From: Fluviispira vulneris
Lineage (GTDB): Bacteria; Bdellovibrionota_B; Oligoflexia; Silvanigrellales; Silvanigrellaceae
Assembly (NCBI RefSeq): GCF_014281055.1
Contig: NZ_JACRSE010000004.1
Span: 310,001 to 374,000, forward strand
Length of the DNA stretch: 64,000 bases
Reading direction: 5' to 3'
Shown here one piece after another: positions 29,936 to 45,829 of this stretch (position 1 is its first letter; every line of letters begins with the position of its first letter). Under the pieces are notes generated by a model. It saw only the letters and a program-made list of their open reading frames with translations. It ran no database searches and was not told where the DNA came from. A program made the position numbers and the translations under genes.

Positions 29936-30415
29936 TTAAAATATTTTCTTGAAGTTCTTCCGCAAAAAATAGGCTTCTAGTTCTTTTTCATAACCTAATT
30001 TTGCATAAAATTGATGAGCATCTGCACGTTTGGTCTGAGTTGCTAAGAGCACAGATTGACAGCCCTTGGATCTTGCCCATTGTTCTGCTGTAAGCATAAG
30101 TCCTTTGCCCACACCCTGCTTTCTCCAATTGCTTTCCACAACCAGAGCTCCTATTTCTAAGGTTTTACAACTCAAAAGTGAAGGCGCTTCGAAAAAATGG
30201 ATAAAACCAATTATATGTCCATCACAATTGCTCTGAGCAACGCGCACTTGATGATGCGAAAATAAAATTAAATCCTGAAATCTTTTTTCTAATTCAATTG
30301 CAGACCCTGCAAAACCCAGTGCTTCGCAAAGGAAAGCCACTGCTGGTAAATCTTTTTTTTCTAAAGGTCTAATTAAATATTCAAGCTTTTCGCTCTTTTT
30401 ATTATTCTCTTGCAT
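29936..30415 (-). CDS. GNAT-family N-acetyltransferase
   Basis: 159 residues. It shows the N-terminal IRPLEKKDLPAVAFLCEALGF, the acetyl-CoA binding segment IGALVVESNWRKQGVGKGLM near 87-107 (Q-x-x-G-x-G/K form) and the DAHQFYAKLGYEKE end near 138-150. Probably cytosolic; substrate unknown. It starts four bases beyond the end of the defence operon, on the same strand, so it may be the last cistron of that transcript by read-through, although its function looks unrelated. Confidence 0.85.
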   Translation of the reverse strand: MQENNKKSEKLEYLIRPLEKKDLPAVAFLCEALGFAGSAIELEKRFQDLILFSHHQVRVAQSNCDGHIIGFIHFFEAPSLLSCKTLEIGALVVESNWRKQGVGKGLMLTAEQWARSKGCQSVLLATQTKRADAHQFYAKLGYEKELEAYFLRKNFKKIF

Positions 30416-30419
30416 AAAA

Positions 30420-33400
30420 TTATGCCTCCATATTTTTTAGTGTACCTCTTCCAAAAATATCAGGCATTTCCAAAACTATACTTTCCCATGGTGCTGCATG
30501 ATGAAAGCGCAAAGAAGTCACCCCAATATCCATACACGCTTCGTCTATTAATTTATCTTTTTTCTGTTCCATTAAGGAATCATGATGTGGACCATCCACA
30601 AAAACAAATACATTATTTTGCCCATTGTATGTATAGATAAAATCAGGTCTGGCATTTATTTCTGGAATAAATTTTTGCGCTTTATTTGGTAAATTAAAGC
30701 TATTATCATAAAGCCATTGTACAAATTTCTTTTCAAGTTCACTTTCACAGGCTTTTAATAGTTTATCGAGCTGAGTTTTTGAATCTTCTCCTGCGACAGT
30801 CAATGTTTCTTTATGTGACTTTGTTAGATCAAATAAATAACTGCGAATTAATTTTCGATTGAGTATCGCGTGATCTTGTTGATTGGAGTAGCCCATAAGA
30901 CATTTATAGCAAGCAGAAATACAATATCTACTGTCCGTAGGATCCAATATATCTTCACCTGTATCAGGATCATAATGACACAGTTTTAATGCCTCTTTAG
31001 CAACCTGCTGCATGCGTCTTTCATCTAAAGAAATTTTACGTAACGCTCCTGCACCACCTTCTGCAGCTTCATAGAAGAGAATTCCATGGGGCGCAATTTG
31101 ATTCGGTAAAGTCTCCGCAGATAATTCACTTTCAGCTAATTGAGCGACAATTTGGATAGAGGATTTGAGTGCTGCTTGAAATGATGCTATAAATTCTTTC
31201 GAATTATCTGGGAAATTATCGAGATAAAGTGCATTTTTTCTATCTTCGACATAAGGAACGATGAGTTCTTTAGTTTCAAAATCACTTTCACTGCCTTCTC
31301 CAGGCGCTCTTTCCCAGCGCCCAGTATTTTTATCTAATAAAAATCCTCTGAGTGAGTCTTCATCACTCCGCTTTTTCAACCAACCCTCATTCATGCGCCA
31401 AAGCGTTGCGCCTGGCCCATAATGACACGAAAAAAGGATTTCTTTTTCTTCACTTAAAATATTCATTTTTTCTACAATTTTTTCATGCCCTCTCTCAGCA
31501 AATCGGAATAGAGAACGTACTTTATAACCATAGCGTGTGCGCTCTTCCTCATCGGCTGAAATCCGATCCACTTTGTGGGTAGAAACATTTTGCATTTGAA
31601 AACAATGATCGATGGATTCCAAAGAGTTTGAATAACAATTTTCACAGATATCATAAGTTTTTTCATGTGAAATTATATGCAAATAACCACAATTGTTACA
31701 GCATAAGGATTTCTGCGTTAAAATATTGCCATCTACATTACGTTGTGGAAGGATCACTTTGCTTATTTTATAACGAGAACCGTTGTGATAAATCAACGAC
31801 TGCGGACCAAACTCAGACAGCGCAATAAACCTTGGCCTAGCAAGATATTCTGGCTTTTCTTGATTGTATCTACTTTTAAAATAAGCAAAACCTTTTAAAC
31901 CAGGAATAAATGCAGATAAAGGCAAGCGCGGAAAATTATAACCAGGGAGAAAACCTTCACTCGCTAAGTAACGATAAGGATAAAAATCGGCTGATGTTTT
32001 TTCTCGGTCATCGCCTCTTAAATATTCAATTTGTGCTTTTGCCTCTTCTATTTCTCGATCTGCCCGTATTCTATCTTCTTTACTAGCAGCATTTGAGTTG
32101 CTTATTTTTTGCGCTTTATCTCTTTGATTTAAAGCAGACTTAAATAATAAACGCCAGCGATCAAAGGCTAAGTCAAATTGCATATAAGCATTTTTAATTG
32201 TCTCATCAAGCCATTTAGGATTTTTCCTGTACCACTCAGCTTCTTGCAATTCAGGAATAGCATCTAAAACTTTACGTGCTGCTAGCAAGGCAATATTATT
32301 TGTATTGATATCTTTTAATTTAGTTACTTTATCTTCCTTGATAAATGTATTATCTGGTTTTTCATCATTGAGATCGATCACATCAGTCATTTTCGAACCT
32401 AAACGGACACCAGCGGAAGCAAGCCAGATAGCATGTACGTGAGAACGAATAAGATCTTCGTTGCTTAAATCAAGGGGGGGAGGCTTTACACTGCCGGCAA
32501 CCATGTCTTGTGCATTTCTAAAAAAATATTGATCATGACTGTTACCTGAAGAACAATAGGTATACACAAAAGCGGCTTGTCCTCCTCTTCCAGCGCGCCC
32601 ACTTCTCTGTGCATAATTCGCAGGAGTGGGTGGTACATTACGCATATTAACCACATTTAATGAGCTAATATCTACGCCTAATTCCATTGTAGGAGAACAA
32701 CAAAGCAGTTGTAAATCACCATTTCTAAATAGAGCTTCGCGTTCTTCACGATCTGAATCGGGAACCTGCGCCGTGTGCTCTGCAGCTCTTAAATATTTTG
32801 TCAGCACAATAGGCTCTTGATATAAGTTAACAAAAAAAGCAAGGGATATTTCATTTTCTTTTTTAGGTGTGATTTCTCCTTTTTTCCAACATATATCGGA
32901 TAATTTAAGGCGAACTCCCAATGGAACTCCCGGCTTTCTATGCGGTGGTAGCGCAATTCCACAAGCTATCAAGCAGCCAAATAAATAAGGAATAAAAGCT
33001 TGAACTTTATTTCTTGTAACCTTTTCATCTGGATATATTTTTATCAATTCAGTCCGAATTTTTCTGCCAAAAACTGAATAGGCAGAAAGGGAAATACGTG
33101 ACGAAGACTCTTCACTCAAGGGGCCAGGCCAAGCGTATTTACAATGATCAACATTCTTTTTACGTTCTATTTGCCAAAGTTCTGATAATTCTTCTTCTAT
33201 CCTACGCTCAATATGAATTAATGACTCATCTTCCAAAAATTTACTTTCAATACATAAATTTTTCCTGAGTCTTGTCGCGAGATCTTCTAAAAATTCATAC
33301 AATACTTTCTCATTCAATGAGATAAATATATTTTGTCCCCAAATTCGATCTTCTTCTTTTTTTACTAACAGTAAAACTTCTTCAAAATAATTCCGTGTCA

Positions 33401-35771
33401 CTTCCAGAGTTGAATTTTTTACACTCTCAAGCTCAGCTTTTTCTCTAAAGCACGCTTCTAATAGAGGGAATGTGATTCTCAACATGTCTGTGCGGTCTAG
33501 ACTTGGCAAAGTGATTCGCCAATCTTCTGCACTTAAGTCTAGCAAAGCTCTATAGACAAGTAATTCTTTCAAAGCATCTTTTGCTTTTCTTCTCTGAGCA
33601 AAACTTGGATTCTGCGAGTTTTCTCGCATGTAGTCCTGCGGTTCTAGTGAAGACATTTCAAATGCATTGAAGAGTGCTTCTGCTAAATGATCGAATTGAA
33701 TTCCCGAAGGAGGAGCCACTTTCAGCGCTTGCCACAAAGCGCGGCGGATCTGCACAGTATCAATAAAGTCGTTGAAATGGCCCGATTGCAAAGAAGCATC
33801 TTGGCGATTGTCTGTGAAACTCATAAGTTTTTTTGCTTTGTCATCAATTCCTTCACTCGCACGCAAAGAATTGATCACAGATAAAGCAAGGACAGTGGTC
33901 GAGGTGCTACGCCCTTCTGTTCCTAAAGTAGCAAGACGCCAAAAGTCCTTCCCACGCGCATTGTCCGTGAAAAAATCGCATTCTAAACAATAGCGGAAAG
34001 GTCGAGAAAAATAAGCTGCTATATGAGAATTGTCTTGCTTATTTTCATAAATATCACCTTCATCACTTAAATAAATTATCTTGGGCACATGCTCTTTGTG
34101 CGATGTTCCTAATTTTATTTCGCCTTTGCTATTTTCTTCCCACCAGGCATCGGGTAAGTTTTCATAGATAAAATTCTTAAAATCATTCGTTGAAATATTT
34201 TTGTCTGTATGCATATAAACAAAACCTGATTCGCCATTTTTATCACTTTCGTCGGAGAGATCGTGACGGGGCTCTAAGTGAGGTGTAGTTTTATGCAATG
34301 AATTTGCAAAGCGTTTGACCGAAAAATAGTCTGCACCGCATTGCCGACAAAATGCAACAGGAAATAATATTTTATTTTTTTTATTTCCATTTTCATTTGG
34401 ATCAAGCGGAGCATATCTAGTTATTTCTAAACTAAAATAAGATCTATCTAAACTGGTGTAAAGATTGCCACCACGCGTGATAAATTGATGCAATTTAAAT
34501 GGAAATAAAGCACGATTGTTTTCCCCCGTTAAAGAAACAGCTCTTAAAATATTTTTTAAAGCTTTTACACATGTCTCTTCTGTTAAAGAACAAAGTTCTT
34601 TTAATTCCAAAGAAATACCATTTTTTCCATCTAAAGGTCTCGGTTTAGAACGAATTAATTGCTTAGATTTTTCGTCATATTGAACTCCCAGTTTCGACTC
34701 AAGCCAAGAACATAAGGGGTCTGATTTAAGGGATTCTAAGGTATGACTGTCTAAATTTTTTGACCATTTTTTTGTACTTTTTTGTAAGCTTAATTTTTCT
34801 GAATCACTGCTAAACTGCAATTCTTCTGTATGTCTCTCTAATGTTTCTCCGATCACATTCTTCGGTAATATATTGACTCCAAAAATTTTGGATGCACATT
34901 CTGCCACTTCTTTTTTAGGATCGCTACTGTCTTCAGCTGCGATAGTAGCAGAAGTTCCTACACAAATAATATTTTTAGATCCACTCCGTTCTTTGAGTCG
35001 GCGGATGAGCAAAGCAACATCACTGCCTTGCCGTCCTCGGTATGTGTGCAATTCATCAAAAACCAAATAATGAAGATCATGAGTTAGATCAAATATTTTT
35101 TGATCTTCTAGCCTTGTTAACATAAGTTCAAGCATCATATAATTTGTAATTAATATATGCGGTGGCTCCCTTCTTAATTTCTCTCTTTCTTCTTCTTTAT
35201 CCTGTCCAGTGTAACGAGCGATTTGAATGGGCACATCTTCTTTTGCAAAACCGTAGTTAATATATTTTAATAATTCTTCTTGTTGACTGTTGGCGAGCGC
35301 ATTCATCGGGTAAACAATAATAGCTTGTATACCCATATTTGTTTTTTTTCTTTTTAAAATATCATTTACGATTGGAATAATAAAAGTTAAACTTTTTCCC
35401 GACCCCGTACCTGTTGTAACAACATAATTTTCATTTTTTAATGCACACTCTAAAGCCTCTACTTGATGCGTATATAAATCCAAAGGTTTACAGTTTACTA
35501 AATTTAAATTATCTTTTTGTTTATTGGCTAAAAATATTTTTTCACAGATTGGGTGCAATTTATTTTGCTGAACAAGCTCAGTGATATTGGCTTTTCTTTT
35601 AAAGCCTGGATTCAATTGCACCAAAGGAGATGGCCAAAATGCACCTTTTTGCAGTTCTTCTTGTACAAATAAATCCATCTGTTTATTTTTAATGCCGAAA
35701 AAACTTGTAACTAATTTTTTATAATCACTGATAACTTTATCACGTAATGAAAAAACATCAAAAAATGACAT
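30420..35771 (-). CDS. DEAD-box helicase with DUF1998-like zinc motifs and C-terminal nuclease-like domain
   Basis: 1783-residue protein. The first RecA-like domain has the Q-type motif LYTHQVEALE (about 100), Walker A GTGSGKS at 121-127, DELH at 239-242 and SAT at 274-276. The second RecA domain has SPTMELGVDISSLN and QRSGRAGRGGQ near residues 1030-1075. The C-terminal part holds a four-Cys cluster (CCNNCG, CENC) and CISACYKCLMGYSNQQDH, as in DUF1998/MrfA-type proteins. The last 130 residues read ARPDFIYTY then FVFVDGPHHD, as in Vsr/DUF559-type PD-(D/E)XK nucleases. The size and order resemble Druantia DruE; it could also be a DrmA-DrmB fusion. It is the last of four co-directional defence genes, five bases after the helicase before it. 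Confidence 0.8.
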   Translation of the reverse strand: MSFFDVFSLRDKVISDYKKLVTSFFGIKNKQMDLFVQEELQKGAFWPSPLVQLNPGFKRKANITELVQQNKLHPICEKIFLANKQKDNLNLVNCKPLDLYTHQVEALECALKNENYVVTTGTGSGKSLTFIIPIVNDILKRKKTNMGIQAIIVYPMNALANSQQEELLKYINYGFAKEDVPIQIARYTGQDKEEEREKLRREPPHILITNYMMLELMLTRLEDQKIFDLTHDLHYLVFDELHTYRGRQGSDVALLIRRLKERSGSKNIICVGTSATIAAEDSSDPKKEVAECASKIFGVNILPKNVIGETLERHTEELQFSSDSEKLSLQKSTKKWSKNLDSHTLESLKSDPLCSWLESKLGVQYDEKSKQLIRSKPRPLDGKNGISLELKELCSLTEETCVKALKNILRAVSLTGENNRALFPFKLHQFITRGGNLYTSLDRSYFSLEITRYAPLDPNENGNKKNKILFPVAFCRQCGADYFSVKRFANSLHKTTPHLEPRHDLSDESDKNGESGFVYMHTDKNISTNDFKNFIYENLPDAWWEENSKGEIKLGTSHKEHVPKIIYLSDEGDIYENKQDNSHIAAYFSRPFRYCLECDFFTDNARGKDFWRLATLGTEGRSTSTTVLALSVINSLRASEGIDDKAKKLMSFTDNRQDASLQSGHFNDFIDTVQIRRALWQALKVAPPSGIQFDHLAEALFNAFEMSSLEPQDYMRENSQNPSFAQRRKAKDALKELLVYRALLDLSAEDWRITLPSLDRTDMLRITFPLLEACFREKAELESVKNSTLEVTRNYFEEVLLLVKKEEDRIWGQNIFISLNEKVLYEFLEDLATRLRKNLCIESKFLEDESLIHIERRIEEELSELWQIERKKNVDHCKYAWPGPLSEESSSRISLSAYSVFGRKIRTELIKIYPDEKVTRNKVQAFIPYLFGCLIACGIALPPHRKPGVPLGVRLKLSDICWKKGEITPKKENEISLAFFVNLYQEPIVLTKYLRAAEHTAQVPDSDREEREALFRNGDLQLLCCSPTMELGVDISSLNVVNMRNVPPTPANYAQRSGRAGRGGQAAFVYTYCSSGNSHDQYFFRNAQDMVAGSVKPPPLDLSNEDLIRSHVHAIWLASAGVRLGSKMTDVIDLNDEKPDNTFIKEDKVTKLKDINTNNIALLAARKVLDAIPELQEAEWYRKNPKWLDETIKNAYMQFDLAFDRWRLLFKSALNQRDKAQKISNSNAASKEDRIRADREIEEAKAQIEYLRGDDREKTSADFYPYRYLASEGFLPGYNFPRLPLSAFIPGLKGFAYFKSRYNQEKPEYLARPRFIALSEFGPQSLIYHNGSRYKISKVILPQRNVDGNILTQKSLCCNNCGYLHIISHEKTYDICENCYSNSLESIDHCFQMQNVSTHKVDRISADEEERTRYGYKVRSLFRFAERGHEKIVEKMNILSEEKEILFSCHYGPGATLWRMNEGWLKKRSDEDSLRGFLLDKNTGRWERAPGEGSESDFETKELIVPYVEDRKNALYLDNFPDNSKEFIASFQAALKSSIQIVAQLAESELSAETLPNQIAPHGILFYEAAEGGAGALRKISLDERRMQQVAKEALKLCHYDPDTGEDILDPTDSRYCISACYKCLMGYSNQQDHAILNRKLIRSYLFDLTKSHKETLTVAGEDSKTQLDKLLKACESELEKKFVQWLYDNSFNLPNKAQKFIPEINARPDFIYTYNGQNNVFVFVDGPHHDSLMEQKKDKLIDEACMDIGVTSLRFHHAAPWESIVLEMPDIFGRGTLKNMEA

Positions 35772-35776
35772 AATAT

Positions 35777-37981
35777 TTAGAACTCCAAATCAAAAACAGT
35801 CAGAGCTTCATCAAGCTCCTCAGCAATTATTTCAACAGGCTTAAATTCTTTTTGGGTAAAAAAACGTTCCACAGGTTTCCAAAATTCTTTTTCATTCAAT
35901 ACATCTAATAATGGAGTCGGCTGTCCTTCATAGAGAGCTAAAAATTTTTCTTGTGCTCGGGTGATAGCTACATACATAAGACGACGGTTGTCGATATCAT
36001 CAGGCCAATATTTATTATTTGCATCGGCTATAATAATAGAATCAAATTCAAGACCTTTTATCTGATGAATATTTGTGACAGTAACACCTTTGCGAAACTC
36101 AAAAGACTCACGTTCACTTTGTCGCACTTCAATTTTTTTAAATTTTAAGAGCGACTGAAGATCATTTTTTAAAGCTTCAATCATTTGCTTATCGTGTAAA
36201 ACAACACAAATATGCGCATGGGGTGCTTCTTCTATCCGCTTTAAAATAAAATGTGTAATTTGTTCCTTCAATTTAAAATAGGATTGAACAGAAATTATTT
36301 GTGGATAAGCTCCTTGTCTTCCTTGTAGAATTTTTTCGGAACCTATCACAGAATCGGCAAGCCACATGATTGGGAGAGTCGAACGGTGTCCGACTTCCAA
36401 TCTTGTTACTTTTGCATTCCCGAAATTTAATTGTTTTGCAATTTCATCCCAACCAATAAATTCTTTTTCTGGAAATATTTTTTGATTGGTATCGCCAACT
36501 ATAGTAACACCGGTGCGAGAGTTAACAGACTCCAGGAGAACCAATAATTGCATCGCTCCAAAATCTTGCGCTTCATCGATGACCAAGTGATCGAATTTAA
36601 AAATAGTTTCACCTAACAAACCATAGGGCAAACCACCACGTTTGAGTTGAACAAGTCGCAATAAAAGTGCATAGTCATCGTACTCTACATATTTACCGAC
36701 TTTTGCACTGCTAGCCTTACCTTCGCTTTGTATTATTTTTTGTCTTTGTCCTATTTTTTTAGCTTTTTCTTCTGTCAAACCAGGAATGCATTTCATCAAC
36801 CATTCCCAATGGCTTAATAAACTCAACAGTTCTTCTTTATACAAAATAGATTTTTCATAAACATTTTGCAGGAGTATTTCGATTTGCTCCAAACGTTTTT
36901 TTTCATACTCATCTTCTTCTTTTAATATGAGTCTTTTTATTTCTTGTCTGAATTCGATTATATCTTGCACATAGGCTGTTTCACTGCGCTTATATTTAAA
37001 TCGAATATTATCTGTATCGTACGTAGGAATTTTACTTTCGATAAAATCCCAAGTTTTTTTAGCTTGCGCCTTTACATAAACTTCCATCAATTGAGAAATA
37101 CCTGCATGGGATTTTATCATCACCAATTTTTCATTGTCTTTAAAAGAATATTTATCAAATAATTTTTTTAAATTTTTCCCGGAAATGGTTTCTAATTGGC
37201 CTTTATAAACGCTTTCCAAAGCTGAGATTGCCCAGGAATGAAAGGTATTGATTTCAATTTTATCTTCTAAGTTCAAAGATCTTATACTTTGTTTCACAAA
37301 ACTCTGCAGAGATTTATTGAACATCACAACTAAAACTTTAGTTTTTTTATTGATCCCGTGTTCTTCATTTTCATCCCATAACAACCAAGACACTCTATGC
37401 AGAGCTACTGAAGTTTTTCCCGAACCCGCACGCCCTTGAATGATCAGGGGTTCAGATGTTTTTTGCGTAATCAGTTCGTATTGTTCAGGTGTAAGTAAGG
37501 AAATGAGATCGGGTAAGCCTTCTTGTTGTGACTGTTTAACAACTTGAGTTATTTTTTCATTCTCATCTTTGCTTTGGGTATTGTTTAGGTCAACAAAGGA
37601 GCCATCATCAAGACGAACAATTTTTGCGGTGCCATTTAAATCACTCCATTCGAGGGATTTTAAATAACCCGAATATCCCTCGGCCGCGGCAAAAGCTGTT
37701 ACGGCACCTTGTATACTGCGAAAAGGAGGTTCGAGCTCAATTTCTTCACCAATATTCAATTTTTGATAATAAAACTTCGCAACAGGATGCCGCCAATCGA
37801 CTATTTTTTCTTCTTTGTTTGCCACTGCCCCAATGCGAAATTCAAAATCTTCTTTTTTATTTTTAAAAGAAACATAAGCATGCCAAGGCGTGTCCAACTC
37901 TAATTTCGGGGCTAAAACTTGAAACTCTTCGTTCACACGTTCTGCAATTTTAATTGGTTCTTTTTCATTCGCTAAGCTCAT
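35777..37981 (-). CDS. HelD-like UvrD-family (SF1) helicase
   Basis: 734 residues. The N-terminal part has FRIGAVANKEEKIVDWRHPVAKFYYQ near 48-73, matching the GRI...VVDWRAPV segment typical of HelD and helicase IV. The SF1 core has Walker A GRAGSGKT at 183-190, DEAQD near 475, the GDTNQKIFP block and the ITRAQEK end motif near 680. It overlaps the methylase stop by 17 bases and the next gene starts five bases after it, so translation is coupled. In the operon it could move along DNA or displace RNA polymerase; which it does is not shown. HelD-like members in defence operons are uncommon as far as I recall. Confidence 0.8.
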   Translation of the reverse strand: MSLANEKEPIKIAERVNEEFQVLAPKLELDTPWHAYVSFKNKKEDFEFRIGAVANKEEKIVDWRHPVAKFYYQKLNIGEEIELEPPFRSIQGAVTAFAAAEGYSGYLKSLEWSDLNGTAKIVRLDDGSFVDLNNTQSKDENEKITQVVKQSQQEGLPDLISLLTPEQYELITQKTSEPLIIQGRAGSGKTSVALHRVSWLLWDENEEHGINKKTKVLVVMFNKSLQSFVKQSIRSLNLEDKIEINTFHSWAISALESVYKGQLETISGKNLKKLFDKYSFKDNEKLVMIKSHAGISQLMEVYVKAQAKKTWDFIESKIPTYDTDNIRFKYKRSETAYVQDIIEFRQEIKRLILKEEDEYEKKRLEQIEILLQNVYEKSILYKEELLSLLSHWEWLMKCIPGLTEEKAKKIGQRQKIIQSEGKASSAKVGKYVEYDDYALLLRLVQLKRGGLPYGLLGETIFKFDHLVIDEAQDFGAMQLLVLLESVNSRTGVTIVGDTNQKIFPEKEFIGWDEIAKQLNFGNAKVTRLEVGHRSTLPIMWLADSVIGSEKILQGRQGAYPQIISVQSYFKLKEQITHFILKRIEEAPHAHICVVLHDKQMIEALKNDLQSLLKFKKIEVRQSERESFEFRKGVTVTNIHQIKGLEFDSIIIADANNKYWPDDIDNRRLMYVAITRAQEKFLALYEGQPTPLLDVLNEKEFWKPVERFFTQKEFKPVEIIAEELDEALTVFDLEF

Positions 37982-40900
37982 ATTCTTTTTCCTTTACATG
38001 TTTATCCTTTTTTCTCTCTGTTCCCTTAATCTCTTCATCTAAGTCAAAATAGGCAAATGATTTTTTAATTTCTTTTCCTAATAACAGCTGCTGTTCTTCT
38101 TCTTTTTTTCGTTCATTGTTTAGCAGTGAAAGGCGTTCGAGAATCTGTTCCCGCGCTGCAGGAGATGGGGTATAGCGAAATTCACCCTTTTCTAAATATT
38201 TACCTGCATCCTGTCCTTCATAAAAATCCATGCAGAGCTCAATGTCTTGCCATTGATAAGCAGCAAGCACCGCTTCATTTATCTGTTTGTGCAGATTGCG
38301 TAAGGCATAAATATCATCAAAAGGTGGATTTTGTTTGTCTATTTCTTCGCTATTCGATAATTTCTGGTTGTGAAATAAATTATAAACTTTGGTCAAACCA
38401 ATATTACGCTCAAGACAAATACTTTTTCGCTGGGCAAGGTATTTTTCTCCCAGAGAATTTAGCATCTGCAATTGCTCCCGACTTGGGCGCGGAAAGGGAA
38501 AGGTTTCGAAGCAGGATGAAGGTGAATAAGTTCTTGTTTTACCTAAAGTGCTACAATTTTTATCCATCCATAATTCATGAAAGTGACTTTGTAAAATAAT
38601 ATAAATTGATCTAATATTTGTTCCTAATACTACAATTTTATCAGAAAATACTTGCTTAGAATTAATTATAGTTGGACAACAATGCGCTGATACCCTGGCA
38701 ATGGCAAAAGTTTCACTTTGAATATTTAAATAATTATATAATCCCTTTGCGGAACTTGCATATTTCCACCAATATTTTCCTCTATTATCCGCTATTGTAT
38801 TTTTTCCAATATTTTCTTCTCTTTCAGGTTTTACTAACTTCTCAACTCTGTTTATTGCGGATGGGTAATCTGCAGCAACAGAGCCAGTATAGTTTGGGGC
38901 AGCAATTCCAAAGAAAATTGAATTATTTTCACCATTAATATGTTTTCTTTCATTTACTAATGATTTTGATATTTGATCCCACTCTTTATTCCCTGCTCTT
39001 CTTAAAGGCCAATCAAAAAAATTTATCACATATCTACTAGCTTCTTGCGCTGGACTGGTATTTAAGTCATCACCTGTAATATAAGGAAATAAAATATCAT
39101 TAGGATTTTTGTTTTCATTGACTAAGTTTTCTTGCATTATTTTTAATTCAGTCTTTGGCTCTAAAGTAAAACCTCTGCCAAGAATAAAACTGCCTTGAAA
39201 TGACTCTTCAGCATTTTCAACTAAAACAAAAATATTTCCACTTTTTCTTTCTGACAGTTCCTCATTTATAATATGAGTTTTTATCCCATTAATTGTCTTT
39301 TGCGCATGATCTTTTTCCTTCGCAATATGCACCACACTCACCTGTAAAGAAGCCATCCCTTCCCAGGGAGTCGAAGTGATTGCGTTAGTTATAATACCTC
39401 TCCACTTACAGACAATCGGTGTTAAACTTGCATCTTTAGTATAACCTTGAGCAATTGTACTCGTTGCAATAAAACCTAAATTGCCATTTAATTTTAAACT
39501 CATAAAGTAACGGGTAAAAAAATACGCGCAAAGATCTGTAGTGACGTTCGAATTTCTATTTTGCACCTTTAGAAAATTTAAATATTTATTGCCTAAGTTT
39601 GAACTAATTCTAGATCCCCCCAAAAAAGGGGGATTGCCAAGCACGCAGTGGAAACCACCGTCTTTAAAAACTTCGGGCCACTCGAGTTCCAGGTGAAAAA
39701 AGTTGTAAATATCGGCTAGTCTTTTGGTCTCGGCGAGTTTTTCAGGGTGTAAATTTTCGTTGTTGTGCAAATCTGCAAGGGTGGGCGCGACGCTGTTCCC
39801 TGCCTGATACTGCCAAAAAAAGGCTGCGCACCAAAGATCAGCCCGTAGTTTTTCGAGCAAGTATTGCTTTTCTTGCTTGAGTTTTAAGAATTCTTTTTCG
39901 CGGGAAATACGACTTTTGGCATCTTCCACGTCTGTTTCCGACAATTGATTAAAGGCCTCAGCTAAGTCTTCACTTGCTATGCCCATAAAGGGTTCAACCC
40001 CACTTTTGAGCTGCTTTTTATTTAAATCCCGTGCATTATTGGCAATGGTTTTGTTGTCCGCCAAGTAAGAAAGTCCACGCTGCGCAGGGTCTTTGAATTC
40101 AGGCTGCGCGGTATAAGCTGCGTTTGGAATATGGCTTGGCCACAGTTCGTAGGCAAGCCCGCGGATTTCTTTTTCCAGTTGTTTCTTTATTTTTAATTTT
40201 GCTTCCCGCTCTTTTTCAGGCAAATGGAATGAGTTGCCTAAGGCCGCTATCAACTTCTCCCGCTCTTTTTCGCGCTTGGCGATTTCTTCGCTCAATTCTT
40301 TTTGTATGGCAGCGCACATACTCTTGGTTGGCACACCGAGCAGGGCATCGCCCACGCGAATGTGGTGTTCTAAGAAAGTCAGCGGTTTGCCTGCTTCCAT
40401 GGACTCCATCCAGAGCGCCACGCGGCACAGGTCGATCGCCATGGGGTTCACGTCCAAGCCATAAATGCATTTGCGAATGACTTCTCTTACGGCCATGCGT
40501 AAATCAAGCGGTGGCGGGGAATCATCGCCGGTGCGGAGTTTCGCAATTTCAAGGCCAAGCCGATGGGCGGCAGCCACTAAAAAATGCCCACTGCCGCAGG
40601 CGGGATCCAAAATCCTGAGTTTAAACAATTCTTTTTCTTTGTCTTTCGCCGTTTTTCCTTTTTCGAGGGCATCTTCAATCGAAGCTTTTAAAGCAAAATC
40701 GAGGACGGAATTTAATATGCGTGTAGGCGTATAGTGCGCTCCTGTTACTTTACGTTCGTCGGTAAACTCTTCATTGTTTTGTGCGCCGATAGAAACCCGC
40801 TTCAATTCAAAATTAATATTGGGGATTAAAGGTAACAAACTCTCATACACACCACCAAGTTCTTCGGCACCTAAATGTCCCCAATTGACTCTCTGCTTTG

Positions 40901-42188
40901 TTCCTTTATCATCTTCGGTGAAACAGAGTGAGCGGAGTGAATTTAAAAAATATTCATTACTGACATTCGCATCGTTTAAAAAACTGGTTGCTTCATTTGA
41001 AAATAAAAATCCTCCGAGTGCCGGTAAAGCAAGACTCGTCAAACCCTCTTCGCTACCTAAGGCTTGGGTAATGAGCTTAAAAGAAAGCCACAGGTCAAAG
41101 TGCGCGCTGCCCGTTTGCCCATTGGTGGCAAAAATGCGCAAGCGTTCGGTTGAATAATATTTTTTATACAGTTCTCTCGCTTTATTTGCTGCTTTTGGCC
41201 CATGCAATAAATTGCGATCTTCTGCAACAAATAAAAAAACCAAGCGATAAATCCAGCGTAACGATTGCCGATAGAATTCTTGTTTTGTGCATTCACCTGA
41301 TTCTAATTGTGCACGAAGTCTTTCTCCAGCTTCAGAATAGTCAGAGATAAAACCAGACGCCAAGTACTCAATAGCTTTGCTCACCCCAATTTTAAGTTTA
41401 TCGAGGGCGCGAATGCCGCTTTCCATTGCTTTTTTATGCCAGAGCTCAATTATAATTTCTTTTGATTTCTCTTTTTTTAATAAAAAAACGCTCTTGTGAC
41501 ATAGTAAATATAATTTTTCAAAACTGGCAATGTCGTTCTCAGAGAAAATAAAATCACAGTCGAATTCTATATAGGATTGTCTTGTTAAGCTCGCAGTATC
41601 TCTTAAGAGGCGAATGGATTTCCCATTGGAGATAACCCCCCAAAGATGTTCCGAAGCCGCATTTAAATACTCTTGCATAAGCGAATGCGCTGTTACTTTA
41701 CGTTCCACAAGCGAGTTTTCATTTGCACTTTCGCGCAATATAGAAAAATTACGCTGGGAGTCGAAATCTTCCCACACACTGGTAAACAACAATGGAATTT
41801 GATTGTCTTCAATATAATCTAATTTATATGAGTTGGAGTTCAGTTTTTTTTCTATCCCTAAGGAATTTGGAATGGAATAACCTAATTCAGAAAATAATTC
41901 ACTTAAAAATTCGATTTTGGTTTTTAAGCGCTCATGATCCAATTCATCTTTATTCCAATCTTTATGACTCAATTGCTTTTCTTCTTGTCTTAGTTTCGAC
42001 CAAGCATTCCATTTGAGTAAAAGTTCGTTCCAAGATCTGTGAATTTTTTCTTTTAAGCTCTCTGCCCCAGTTAATGAATAAAGTTCACGTTTTATTTTCT
42101 GCTCTATATTTCTTTCAGTTAGACTTTCAATAAAATCACGATGAAATAAAGCACCCTCTAAATGAATTGCTGAATTTTTATTTATCAT
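37965..42188 (-). CDS. Large Eco57I-type N6-adenine DNA methylase (DISARM/BREX-like)
   Basis: 1407 residues. After a helical N-terminal region with EHLWGVISNGKSIRLLRD near 180-197, the methylase core has TGAHYTPTRILNSVLD (about 475-490), motif I LDPACGSGHFLVAA near 525-540 and catalytic motif IV GNPPF near 850 with the context LGNPPFLGGS. The C-terminal part is of the TaqI/Eco57I target-recognition kind. Size and layout fit DrmMI of DISARM type I, or PglX-like proteins. I see no convincing nuclease motif, so it should mark self DNA. The catalytic core (about 39600-40720) is clearly richer in G+C than its flanks. It starts four bases after the DrmD-like gene. Confidence 0.8.
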   Translation of the reverse strand: MINKNSAIHLEGALFHRDFIESLTERNIEQKIKRELYSLTGAESLKEKIHRSWNELLLKWNAWSKLRQEEKQLSHKDWNKDELDHERLKTKIEFLSELFSELGYSIPNSLGIEKKLNSNSYKLDYIEDNQIPLLFTSVWEDFDSQRNFSILRESANENSLVERKVTAHSLMQEYLNAASEHLWGVISNGKSIRLLRDTASLTRQSYIEFDCDFIFSENDIASFEKLYLLCHKSVFLLKKEKSKEIIIELWHKKAMESGIRALDKLKIGVSKAIEYLASGFISDYSEAGERLRAQLESGECTKQEFYRQSLRWIYRLVFLFVAEDRNLLHGPKAANKARELYKKYYSTERLRIFATNGQTGSAHFDLWLSFKLITQALGSEEGLTSLALPALGGFLFSNEATSFLNDANVSNEYFLNSLRSLCFTEDDKGTKQRVNWGHLGAEELGGVYESLLPLIPNINFELKRVSIGAQNNEEFTDERKVTGAHYTPTRILNSVLDFALKASIEDALEKGKTAKDKEKELFKLRILDPACGSGHFLVAAAHRLGLEIAKLRTGDDSPPPLDLRMAVREVIRKCIYGLDVNPMAIDLCRVALWMESMEAGKPLTFLEHHIRVGDALLGVPTKSMCAAIQKELSEEIAKREKEREKLIAALGNSFHLPEKEREAKLKIKKQLEKEIRGLAYELWPSHIPNAAYTAQPEFKDPAQRGLSYLADNKTIANNARDLNKKQLKSGVEPFMGIASEDLAEAFNQLSETDVEDAKSRISREKEFLKLKQEKQYLLEKLRADLWCAAFFWQYQAGNSVAPTLADLHNNENLHPEKLAETKRLADIYNFFHLELEWPEVFKDGGFHCVLGNPPFLGGSRISSNLGNKYLNFLKVQNRNSNVTTDLCAYFFTRYFMSLKLNGNLGFIATSTIAQGYTKDASLTPIVCKWRGIITNAITSTPWEGMASLQVSVVHIAKEKDHAQKTINGIKTHIINEELSERKSGNIFVLVENAEESFQGSFILGRGFTLEPKTELKIMQENLVNENKNPNDILFPYITGDDLNTSPAQEASRYVINFFDWPLRRAGNKEWDQISKSLVNERKHINGENNSIFFGIAAPNYTGSVAADYPSAINRVEKLVKPEREENIGKNTIADNRGKYWWKYASSAKGLYNYLNIQSETFAIARVSAHCCPTIINSKQVFSDKIVVLGTNIRSIYIILQSHFHELWMDKNCSTLGKTRTYSPSSCFETFPFPRPSREQLQMLNSLGEKYLAQRKSICLERNIGLTKVYNLFHNQKLSNSEEIDKQNPPFDDIYALRNLHKQINEAVLAAYQWQDIELCMDFYEGQDAGKYLEKGEFRYTPSPAAREQILERLSLLNNERKKEEEQQLLLGKEIKKSFAYFDLDEEIKGTERKKDKHVKEKEYELSE

Positions 42189-42191
42189 ATT

Positions 42192-45100
42192 TTAATTCCA
42201 ATTTACAACAGGAAGAAAGACATAGACTCCTAAGACATCGGGTACACCCACACACTCAACCCGCACACGTCGGATAGTTCCCTGTGTGCGCACACGTCTA
42301 TGTGTTTCTAAAATATCGATCATTCTTTTTTCTTTTTGCCACAAGGATAATTCATTGCATAAATGAGAAGCTGCTTCTAGAATTGGTTTTAAAAAACGAT
42401 CCCTTTCTGCCACGGTTACGTTGGCATCGGGTTGAGCTTTACTTAAAATAAGTTCAGCACTTTCACCCATAGTTATTTGATCCTGGGAAAAATCAGTAGG
42501 AGAACCTTCAAACAGAATGGGCAATATTTCTTCGACAAGCGAGGACTCTTCCTCTTTTTCTTCTCTTAATAAGTAACGAAACCGGCCTAAAAGAACCGAT
42601 GTTCTTTTACTCACAACTTTAGTGCGCATAACCCCAGCTCTTGCCGCAACTTTTAAAGGGTGATTTTTAATTAAGCCATCAAGCGAGGTTTCAAGCACTG
42701 TTCTAGCAATGTCTTCCACTTCCGGTGAGGTGCGTAAAACAAGTTTATCGATTTCTGCAAGACAGTTTGGATCGAAACTCAGTTTGAAGGAATAGTCTTT
42801 TTTATTCAGAGAACCCAGTCTATTTTTTAACTGCAAATCTGGGATTTGTGCTTCTATATAATTATCTTTTTTAACATAATGACCGCGCGTGCGCTCTATT
42901 AAAGTTAAGATAAATCTTTCAACATCTTCTTGACTGCCTAAGGATTGCTTCATGGCATCAAGTTCTTTTTTTACATCATCGACAGTGACTTTACTGTGAC
43001 TATAAAATGTTCTTGAAGTTTTTTGATATTCTTCTTTTACTTTATCTATTTTTGTTTCCAGTTTTTTCAAACGAAAGGCTTTTTCATTTGCCTCGAAACT
43101 TGCTGAGGTGTCATCGAATAATAATATTTGCTGAGATTCTTCTTTTTTTGTTTCTTTAACTTTTAAAGCCAATTGTAATATTTCTTCGCCGATATCTGTA
43201 ATAGGTAAATGCACTCCGAGTGCGTTGCGAATTTGTCTTTGCTTTTCATGCAAAATTCTTAAAAATATTTCTTCAATTGGATGGTCTTTACCGATTAAAG
43301 TAAATATATGCACTTCTGGAGATTTCTGCAGCAATCTATCCACACGCCCTTCTCGTTGTTCATGCCGATTGGGATTCCAAGCAAAGTCATAATGAATAAC
43401 TGTGTCAAAGAGCTCCTGTAAATTGACCCCCTCACTTAAACAGTCCGTACAAATAAGTATCCTTTGTCCGATATGCTCTTGAAAATCTTTCAGCACCATC
43501 TGTCGCTCTTCAGGTGAATTTTTTCCTGTTAAGGTGCGAATTTCGAGTTTGCTTTTTTGAGTGAAGGGTTGAATATTCTCATCTATTACCAATTCGTCGT
43601 ATATGTATCTTGCTGTATCAATAAATCGACAGAATATAACAATATTTCTTTTTTTCCCTAAGCATTTCTTAATGAGGATTTCATGGATTAAATTCTGTAA
43701 TTTTGGATCTTTCTTCCCAGTCAACGATTTTAAGGTTAAAGCAAGCTCTCTTTGCTTTGGACTGAGCTGCGAAAAGACAAATTCTTCCTCTTCTTCAATT
43801 GTTCTTTCAAGCGAATCTATCTTTTTTTCTTCAAGCTCAACAGTTTCTTTTTTCTTGCGCCCTCTTTTTTTCGCCTCTGGTTCTTTCGTTGCTGTTAGTT
43901 CAATTTGCGCTTTTTTCTTTGTTTTATTTTCTTCAAAATCAAGTTGAATGTTATTTATGAAATCTATTTCTTCATTTTCAAAAGAAACTCCAGGAACTTC
44001 TTCATCTGATAAAAAATAACTTTCATCTTCGCTGTCATCATTTTCATTCTGCTCGTAACTTATACTGCCGAATATATCTCTGTGGGCTTGCTTTTTTAAT
44101 TCCTCTGCATTTTTTGCATTTTTCAATGCCGATCTTCTACAGAGTGATAGGTATGCTGCTTTCGGACTCGAGGTGAGAGCTAAGACAAGTGTAAATGCAG
44201 ACCACCACTGCGCCTGCCTCCACTTGTTAGAATTTTCACCCACGTTTTCTTCTTGCAGTTGGGTGGCTTCAGCTAAAATAGAAGTACAAAGATCGATATT
44301 TAATTTAGGTAAATTATATGTAACATTATTGCGTATTCTCTCGGGAAATAAATTATCACCTAAAAATTTCTTAATATCTGGCCGTCTTCTCTGGACAAAA
44401 TAATTGGCTAATTCTTCGCGCAGTTTTTCATTTTCACTTCCCGACATATTTTCAGGTAATTTTTCTGCTAATTTTGGATTTAATATTGAAATAAGCGATC
44501 GAAAAGCTTGATTTTTTCCACTGTGAGGAGTTGCAGTAAGTAATAAAATATTTTTCTTCGGATTTTTTGCAACATCAGACAGCAATTTATGCCTCAATTG
44601 TTGGGTTTTACCCACCGCAGAGTCAGCGCATTCGTGAGCTTCATCCACCACCAAAAGATCGGGGCATTTAGCATAAAACTCATTTCTGTTCCGTTCGCTT
44701 TTAATAAAATCTATGCTCACAACTGTAAAAGGATATTCATCAAATATTCCTTTTCCTGGAGAACAATTTTTCTCTAGCGTTACAGCTTTTTTTGCTGTGA
44801 CTTCAACTGCCTCAATATGAAATTTATCATTAAGTTCCTTTGTCCACTGACTCACTAAATGAGCTGGACATAAAACTGCAAAACGTTTTACTTCATGCCT
44901 GTCGATCAATTCTCGGACAATAAGCATGGCTTCAATGGTTTTACCAACTCCAACATCATCTGCAATTAAGAGTCTTATTGCTTCGCTTTCTTGTCTCAGG
45001 GCAAGGATAAGTGGCACCAATTGATAAGCTCTTGGTTCGACAGAAATGCGCCCGAAGGAGCGAAAGGGACCGACGCCCGTGCGGATTGAAAGTCTTGCAG

Positions 45101-45329
45101 CATCTCTTAGCAAACGTGCAGAAGAAGCATCGCCTGCTTCTGCTAACGATGGAAATGGAAATTCAGCGGGCTCTATCTTTTCAATTTTTGTTAATATTCC
45201 GGTTTCTTCATTTCCTTCTCTACCTGCTAAAGGTCTAAGTAAACAGAGTTCGGAAGAACTGCCAGGGAGGACTGTCCACTCCCTCCCTCTTGCACGCACC
45301 AAAGAGCCAGGTGAAAAATGATGATCCAT
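42192..45329 (-). CDS. drmD: SNF2-family helicase, DrmD-like
   Basis: 1045 residues from ATG 45329, chosen because AAAGGG lies five bases upstream; an upstream extension of 20 residues lacks a good site. The N-terminus FSPGSLVRARGREWTVLPG matches, from memory, DISARM SNF2 helicases. The core has Walker A DDVGVGKT near 124-131, DEAH at 229-232, LLLTATPHSGK near 265, CTDCLSEGVNLQ near 630 and the NRHEQREGRVDRL motif near 655. A charged Lys/Glu-rich insert lies about 410-520. It is the first gene of the four-gene operon, so the promoter probably lies in the 500-base AT-rich gap upstream. It would move or remodel DNA in phage restriction. Confidence 0.78.
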   Translation of the reverse strand: MDHHFSPGSLVRARGREWTVLPGSSSELCLLRPLAGREGNEETGILTKIEKIEPAEFPFPSLAEAGDASSARLLRDAARLSIRTGVGPFRSFGRISVEPRAYQLVPLILALRQESEAIRLLIADDVGVGKTIEAMLIVRELIDRHEVKRFAVLCPAHLVSQWTKELNDKFHIEAVEVTAKKAVTLEKNCSPGKGIFDEYPFTVVSIDFIKSERNRNEFYAKCPDLLVVDEAHECADSAVGKTQQLRHKLLSDVAKNPKKNILLLTATPHSGKNQAFRSLISILNPKLAEKLPENMSGSENEKLREELANYFVQRRRPDIKKFLGDNLFPERIRNNVTYNLPKLNIDLCTSILAEATQLQEENVGENSNKWRQAQWWSAFTLVLALTSSPKAAYLSLCRRSALKNAKNAEELKKQAHRDIFGSISYEQNENDDSEDESYFLSDEEVPGVSFENEEIDFINNIQLDFEENKTKKKAQIELTATKEPEAKKRGRKKKETVELEEKKIDSLERTIEEEEEFVFSQLSPKQRELALTLKSLTGKKDPKLQNLIHEILIKKCLGKKRNIVIFCRFIDTARYIYDELVIDENIQPFTQKSKLEIRTLTGKNSPEERQMVLKDFQEHIGQRILICTDCLSEGVNLQELFDTVIHYDFAWNPNRHEQREGRVDRLLQKSPEVHIFTLIGKDHPIEEIFLRILHEKQRQIRNALGVHLPITDIGEEILQLALKVKETKKEESQQILLFDDTSASFEANEKAFRLKKLETKIDKVKEEYQKTSRTFYSHSKVTVDDVKKELDAMKQSLGSQEDVERFILTLIERTRGHYVKKDNYIEAQIPDLQLKNRLGSLNKKDYSFKLSFDPNCLAEIDKLVLRTSPEVEDIARTVLETSLDGLIKNHPLKVAARAGVMRTKVVSKRTSVLLGRFRYLLREEKEEESSLVEEILPILFEGSPTDFSQDQITMGESAELILSKAQPDANVTVAERDRFLKPILEAASHLCNELSLWQKEKRMIDILETHRRVRTQGTIRRVRVECVGVPDVLGVYVFLPVVNWN

Positions 45330-45829
45330 GAAATGCCCTTTACAAAAGTATAAAATAAAATTCTCAATGAAAAAAAATGTGACAGGCATGAACTTAACAA
45401 ATATTTTTTTTATTGTGAAACAATTATTATACTTATTTTATTGGAATAAAACCATATTTTTACATGATTATTAATTAGGCTACCATTTACAAAATAGATT
45501 ATAATAAATAGCTTCTTCTTATTTTTATAACTTACTATAATTATATTTATTTTTATATATATTACAATTTTTTACAAATACATTGTCTTCAAAACTAGAT
45601 ATTAAAATTTTTTACGATTCAAGTGCCACATGAGAAAGTCAATCCTGCTAAATATGCAGGTTCTATTCTTTTAAATATTTTATGCATTAAATTTATGCAA
45701 AATAAATACACACAAATCCATTTTGCATTATTTATTTTTTTTTAGTAAATTATTATATTTTAAGTTTTGTTTTTAAAAAAAAATAAAACTTAAAATTAAA
45801 TGCTAAATCTTAATATATAAGGAATATTT
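45330..45829. other. AT-rich intergenic region between divergent genes
   Basis: Five hundred bases between the defence operon (minus) and a small secreted protein (plus), so promoters for both probably lie here. It is almost pure A/T, apart from a short less AT-rich patch near 45625-45665. It holds a perfect 12-base inverted repeat (45757-45796). No gene is seen. Confidence 0.6.
45757..45796. repeat. 12-base inverted repeat upstream of the secreted protein gene
   Basis: Arms ATTTTAAGTTTT (45757-45768) and AAAACTTAAAAT (45785-45796), perfect complements, separated by 16 A/T-rich bases that can also pair. It lies 34 bases before the ATG of the small secreted protein. It could be an operator or a transcript hairpin; A/T composition makes chance pairing more likely than usual. 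Confidence 0.45.

Follow-up and report, generated by a model that had tools for sequence, protein, structure and literature searches.

The operon and domain organization of ArmC

A 64,000-nucleotide stretch of the Fluviispira vulneris genome (contig NZ_JACRSE010000004.1, positions 310,001 to 374,000 of the forward strand; hereafter the window) contains a minus-strand operon comprised, in order, of genes for a SNF2 helicase (ArmA), a methyltransferase (ArmB), a superfamily 1 (SF1) helicase, and ArmC, a YprA/MrfA-type superfamily 2 (SF2) helicase with a nuclease-like C-terminal domain (Table 1). Adjacent genes are separated by 3–5 nt or, in the case of ArmB and the SF1 gene, overlap by 17 nt, and the closest PADLOC models for the four products are DpdE/DrmD, DrmMI, SF1, and DruE. 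The locus appears to be a type I-like ARMADA anti-phage system with armC, an assignment suggested by both a YprA-like helicase joined in one chain to an MZB (MrfA zinc-binding, DUF1998) domain and a C-terminal Vsr-type domain with putative active-site residues, and it would serve in phage defense.

Whole-length relatives of ArmC share 32–57% identity. As read from the translation, the TGTGSGKS and DELH motifs of the DEAD domain are both intact. The zinc motif CYKCLMGYSNQQDH occupies residues 1621–1634 and is followed by a tail of 149 residues, in which RPDFIY begins at residue 1708 (RPDF, 1708–1711) and FVFVDG at residue 1722. A nuclease-like extension carrying these motifs after CYKCLMGYSNQQDH had been proposed in an earlier reading of this locus (the original prediction), and its motif text and coordinates proved correct; the length then given, about 130 residues, was too short. 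The same reading took CYKCLMGYSNQQDH to be the normal end of such proteins, which did not hold: a C-terminal extension is usual in this helicase branch and is carried by most of the relatives fetched (80 named genome loci, referred to below by L numbers, and five plasmid loci).

Table 1. Features of the window operon and HNH_2 genes of related loci (ORF, open reading frame; pLDDT, predicted local distance difference test; pTM, predicted template modeling score)
Feature	Position	Strand	Details and basis
ArmA, BrxHII/DrmD/DpdE-like SNF2 helicase, first gene of operon	42192..45389	-	1065 aa; Pfam/PADLOC
ArmB, PglX/DrmMI/type IIG-like adenine DNA methyltransferase	37965..42188	-	1407 aa; NPPF motif; PADLOC DrmMI E 6e-189; Pfam Eco57I
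SF1 helicase (UvrD/HelD-like), ArmD role	35777..37981	-	734 aa; profile searches
ArmC, YprA/MrfA-type SF2 helicase with nuclease-like C-terminal domain	30420..35771	-	1783 aa; open ORF
ArmC DEAD/DEAH helicase domain	34938..35471	-	Residues 101–278; Pfam PF00270, E 1.1e-29
ArmC Helicase_C domain	32580..32801	-	Residues 991–1064; Pfam PF00271, E 1.1e-13
ArmC MZB domain, ending CYKCLMGY	30897..31181	-	Residues 1531–1625; Pfam PF09369
ArmC Vsr/DUF559-type PD-(D/E)XK core	30444..30752	-	Residues 1674–1776; AlphaFold2 pLDDT 93.4, pTM 0.85; hhalign Vsr 91%, DUF559 96%
Glu1680, first-helix acid	30732..30734	-	Pairs with Vsr Glu25; alignments
Asp1710 of RPDF	30642..30644	-	Pairs with Vsr Asp51; alignments
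Asp1726 of FVDG	30594..30596	-	In place of Vsr His64; alignments
His1730	30582..30584	-	Proposed counterpart of Vsr His69 or DUF559 His; correspondence inferred
Asp1739	30555..30557	-	Pairs with Vsr Asp97 (ERD); alignments
GNAT acetyltransferase	29936..30415	-	4 nt after ArmC
HNH_2 endonuclease genes	L010:29464-30246, L055:21986-22765, L070:22034-22810		Downstream of ArmB
HNH_2 endonuclease genes	L046:12966-13784, L061:13949-14695, L066:23342-24130 and others		Downstream of ArmB

Fold and putative active site of the ArmC tail

As a single sequence, the window tail gave no match in the PDB and no Pfam family at cut-off, the only Pfam signal being a weak match to DUF2726 (E 0.025), so that a family profile is needed to reveal its relationships. 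A profile built from 48 homologous intact tails matched Vsr with an hhalign probability of 91% (E 1e-6) and DUF559 with 96% (E 9e-9), whereas fifteen 140-residue blocks of the same ArmC protein, used as decoys, reached at most 6.4% against either; the match of the tail is therefore not a matter of chance. Searched singly against Pfam, 42 of the 48 tails matched DUF559 (best E 1.2e-6) and 32 matched MTES_1575, with the tail of one relative above the DUF559 cut-off. The top PDB sequence matches were weak (E 0.05–0.4) and comprised the DUF559-like endonuclease 3hrl, Vsr (1cw0), and 3r3p.

The AlphaFold2 model of residues 1640–1783 (pLDDT 89.8, higher in the core) predicts a PD-(D/E)XK-like fold with helix-strands-helix-strand order, in which Glu1680 sits in the first helix and Asp1710 and Asp1726 lie at strand ends. 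Foldseek matches of two models were mostly to PD-(D/E)XK nucleases, namely FAN1, NucS/EndoMS, Holliday resolvases, TnsA, and R2, although each was weak (E at least 0.05).

The roles of the Vsr residues are established, and alignments pair three acids of the tail (Table 1), together with Phe1724, two residues before Asp1726, with Glu25, Asp51, Asp97, and Phe62 of Vsr (1cw0), respectively. The two differ in that Asp1726 takes the place of His64 and the tail has GPHH where Vsr has GCFWH. DUF559 (PF04480, 3hrl), the top profile match, shares the DGxxH motif and the Asp after it but has Glu at the place of Phe1724. Across the 48 intact tails the E, Q, D, D, G, and D columns are invariant and the His is present in at least 90%; all five putative catalytic or metal-binding residues (Glu1680, Asp1710, Asp1726, His1730, and Asp1739) are found in the window tail. 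Profiles and predicted structure thus support the tail of ArmC as a Vsr/DUF559-type PD-(D/E)XK domain that is predicted to cut.

Tail decay and downstream nucleases

The acids at Glu1680, Asp1710, Asp1726, and Asp1739 were counted in 73 homologue tails. All four are kept in 53, against 27.6 expected from independent columns (shuffles), and at most one is kept in 17, almost all in one clade. The Vsr/DUF559 fold and the conserved acids of the original prediction are consequently supported, since neither an unrelated fold nor loss of the acids in most homologues was found. When the partly eroded tails of L057 and L087 are added, the degenerate class amounts to 19 of the 73. These map to three changes on the tree (one clade of 17 and the single rows L045 and L087), and hence to three loss events rather than 19. 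The eroded tails still match the intact-tail profile at 95–99%, revealing that the domain has persisted despite the loss of its active site. A streptomycete subgroup has kept the acids and lost the Gly and His (FVDL). The genome of L057 also encodes, besides the degenerate protein, a second full-length ArmC (G299:C1:2491531-2496813; 39% identity over residues 2–1776).

In the degenerate clade of 17, an HNH_2 (PF13391) endonuclease gene of ~260 aa follows ArmB in the same orientation. In whole genomes it lies within 0–6 kb in all 14 members whose contig continues (L010, L042, L046, L054–L058, L060, L061, L063, L066, L070, and L096, the last with a disrupted operon) and on another contig of the same genome in the remaining three (L052, L062, and L090). 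The intact-tail sister group has HNH_2 downstream in L036, L077, and L039 and elsewhere in the assembly in L034; none was found in the deeper branches L028 and L032, nor in the more distant L020 and L030. Within the fetched stretches, the HNH_2 gene lies downstream in 10 of 15 degenerate loci as compared with 2 of 40 intact ones (Fisher p 5e-6), a figure that ignores relatedness, represents essentially one lineage, and includes intact-tail loci mostly inspected over a few kb only.

The independent loss in L087, an actinobacterial ARMADA type I locus, is accompanied by genes for McrB and McrC that immediately follow ArmB (L087:22063-25076). McrBC was rejected as a general replacement for the tail, as L021, a relative of L087 with an intact tail, has both genes at the same place (L021:12792-16024). 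Where the tail acids are lost, a separate HNH or McrBC nuclease is usually found downstream.

A P-loop protein of ~670 aa (AGHGVGKTSLCLLLRY) is encoded directly after ArmB at L036:23174-25183, L039:22637-24628, L042:22588-24606, L063:23274-24923, and L056:22616-24637, and also in L072 and L076. Its gene stands between ArmB and the HNH gene in five of its loci, and the L036 and L042 copies gave no Pfam match.

Because the sister clade combines HNH with an intact tail, the HNH gene was probably gained first and the tail decayed second. The coordinated loss of acids in the HNH-bearing lineage amounts to a natural experiment on whether the ArmC tail is the ARMADA nuclease, one that names both the residues and the partner gene; decay alongside a stand-alone nuclease suggests that the tail is probably the cutter. 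We lean, if only slightly, toward an exchangeable cutting module in type I ARMADA: the fused Vsr-type tail would be ancestral, HNH_2 would have been recruited downstream of ArmB in one mainly proteobacterial lineage while the tail was intact, and the tail would later have lost its active site and kept its fold, the window being a further variant in which ArmB and ArmC are separated by a non-RelE SF1 helicase. Of the new points, this replacement of the nuclease among relatives is the most useful, and an HNH partner goes unmentioned by Bell et al. 2025 (main text, PMC12458937).

Several observations weigh against cutting by the tail. Neither Foldseek model gave a match reaching E 0.001, and Vsr itself is absent among the matches listed. 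In the (D/E)xK motif, Phe stands where canonical sites have their second acid, which is also the case in Vsr, and Asp takes the place of His64, so that the metal site is, to our knowledge, identical to no solved one. Given the 19 degenerate tails and the FVDL subgroup, not every ARMADA requires a complete site. Moreover, Bell et al. (main text, PMC12458937) describe no mutant of the nuclease domain.

It is conceivable that the PD-(D/E)XK tail no longer cuts and serves instead in DNA binding or docking, for example by recruiting ArmA, ArmB, or the SF1 helicase. The Phe in place of the second acid fits such a role, the persistence of the eroded tail throughout a clade implies a use besides catalysis, and inactive Vsr tails are predicted in Druantia I and II (Bell et al., PMC12458937). 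We nevertheless regard it as unlikely: the window tail has all five putative catalytic residues, docking does not predict the invariance of E, D, D, and D in the 48 intact tails, and the acids were lost as a set.

Proposed mechanism and relation to known defense systems

Taken together, it is likely that ArmC combines a YprA-type SF2 helicase with a fused Vsr/DUF559-type PD-(D/E)XK domain that has putative metal-binding and presumably catalytic residues, in a type I-like ARMADA. Most likely, ArmA and ArmB would help to tell self from invading DNA, and ArmC would load on the invader DNA, translocate under its zinc canopy, and nick or cut the DNA with its tail. A separate nuclease gene would not be needed if the tail cuts in this way, and none was seen adjoining the window operon, as had been noted originally.

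The comparison then drawn with DrmC of DISARM is set aside in favor of ARMADA. A DISARM system whose DrmC is replaced by a fused nuclease would be consistent with the DrmMI score of ArmB, the partial match of ArmA to DrmD, and the fact that DrmC was not seen, but is highly improbable, as the helicase and MZB form one DruE-like chain rather than the split DrmA/DrmB, no PLD gene was found in the operon, ArmA scores 295 bits against a DrmD cut-off of 610, and the gene set fits ARMADA.

Vsr and MrfA are repair proteins, and the fused nuclease might by analogy act in host DNA repair, like Vsr and MrfA/MrfB, with the operon having no part in defense. Very little probability is given to this, because a PglX-like methyltransferase and a SNF2 helicase are encoded in the operon, which is present in only two of eight genomes of the genus, in different surroundings, and has relatives on plasmids and viral contigs; the Escherichia coli homologue, moreover, is a tested phage defense (Bell et al., PMC12458937).

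The second genome of the genus carries these four genes in identical order (53–57% identity). Among the loci fetched, this SF1 helicase, with an N-terminal region of ~150 aa (FRIGAVANKEEKIVDWRHPVAKFYY), occurs only in the window and this congener; the region matches no family, and no RelE was found in it. A HelD-like N terminus, suggested by an IVDWRHP motif, was rejected since no family model supports it, and the SF1 helicase had no plasmid match at E 1e-25. The GNAT acetyltransferase gene following ArmC is spaced as if co-transcribed but is probably not part of the defense system, as no GNAT gene follows the operon of the congener. On the other side of the operon (window:46362-51104) lies a sugar cluster of transketolase halves, a methyltransferase, and an epimerase-glycosyltransferase fusion.

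Among known systems, DruE, the Druantia III helicase-nuclease effector (PMC13192584), is a precedent for helicase and nuclease in one chain, having a YprA-type helicase and a C-terminal nuclease as in ArmC. DruE ends, however, in two PLD domains, and its tail does not match that of ArmC (0.24% against the 48-tail profile). Membership in Druantia was rejected on gene content, as neither DruH nor a PLD domain was found in the products of the operon.

The idea of a fused nuclease is correct yet already in print, the YprA homologues of ARMADA I and II being described as ending in a predicted active Vsr-type nuclease (Bell et al. 2025, PMC12458937). In the same study, E. coli ARMADA II is reported to provide defense without abortive infection and to require all four genes and the ArmC Walker motifs, the ArmC helicase mutants K110A and D234N failing to defend. 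Type II (E. coli NCTC 12900 and ATCC 8739, the ARMADA of the latter located via its published tRNA-Phe site) resembles the window in that it opens with A and B, includes an SF1 helicase (there as the fourth gene), and has a Vsr-type ArmC domain; the tail of this experimentally tested ArmC matches the 48-tail profile at 90%. It differs in that its ArmC has 2113 aa with further tail domains, as compared with 1783 aa, and in its order A-B-C-D, where ArmD (RelE-UvrD) has a RelE N terminus; in the window the SF1 gene, which lacks RelE, is placed between B and C.

In the ArmC tree (FastTree, support 99), the window and its congener fall within the type I relatives of C-A-B order, with the ATCC 8739 type II ArmC, the only type II sequence included and on a long branch, outside. 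Nearly all fetched loci have the order C-A-B; the A-B-SF1-C of the window is reversed and has one added gene, an SF1 partner that does not appear in the main text of Bell et al. (PMC12458937), where a reversed type I order (A-B-C) is published for cyanobacteria and archaea. The order A-B-[RelE-UvrD]-C of Pseudanabaena (L038) reveals that an SF1 helicase between B and C recurs. RelE-UvrD (ArmD-like) genes adjoin type I ArmC at L038:7597-9669 and L051:7731-9902, and the RelE-fused SF1 helicase is therefore not confined to type II operons. What is new beyond the published systems is a type I helicase with A-B-SF1-C order and a non-RelE SF1 helicase common to one congener only, which suggests that a helicase other than the RelE-fused ArmD can be the fourth of ARMADA. 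The locus is thus a modest variation of a published family in gene order and SF1 partner.
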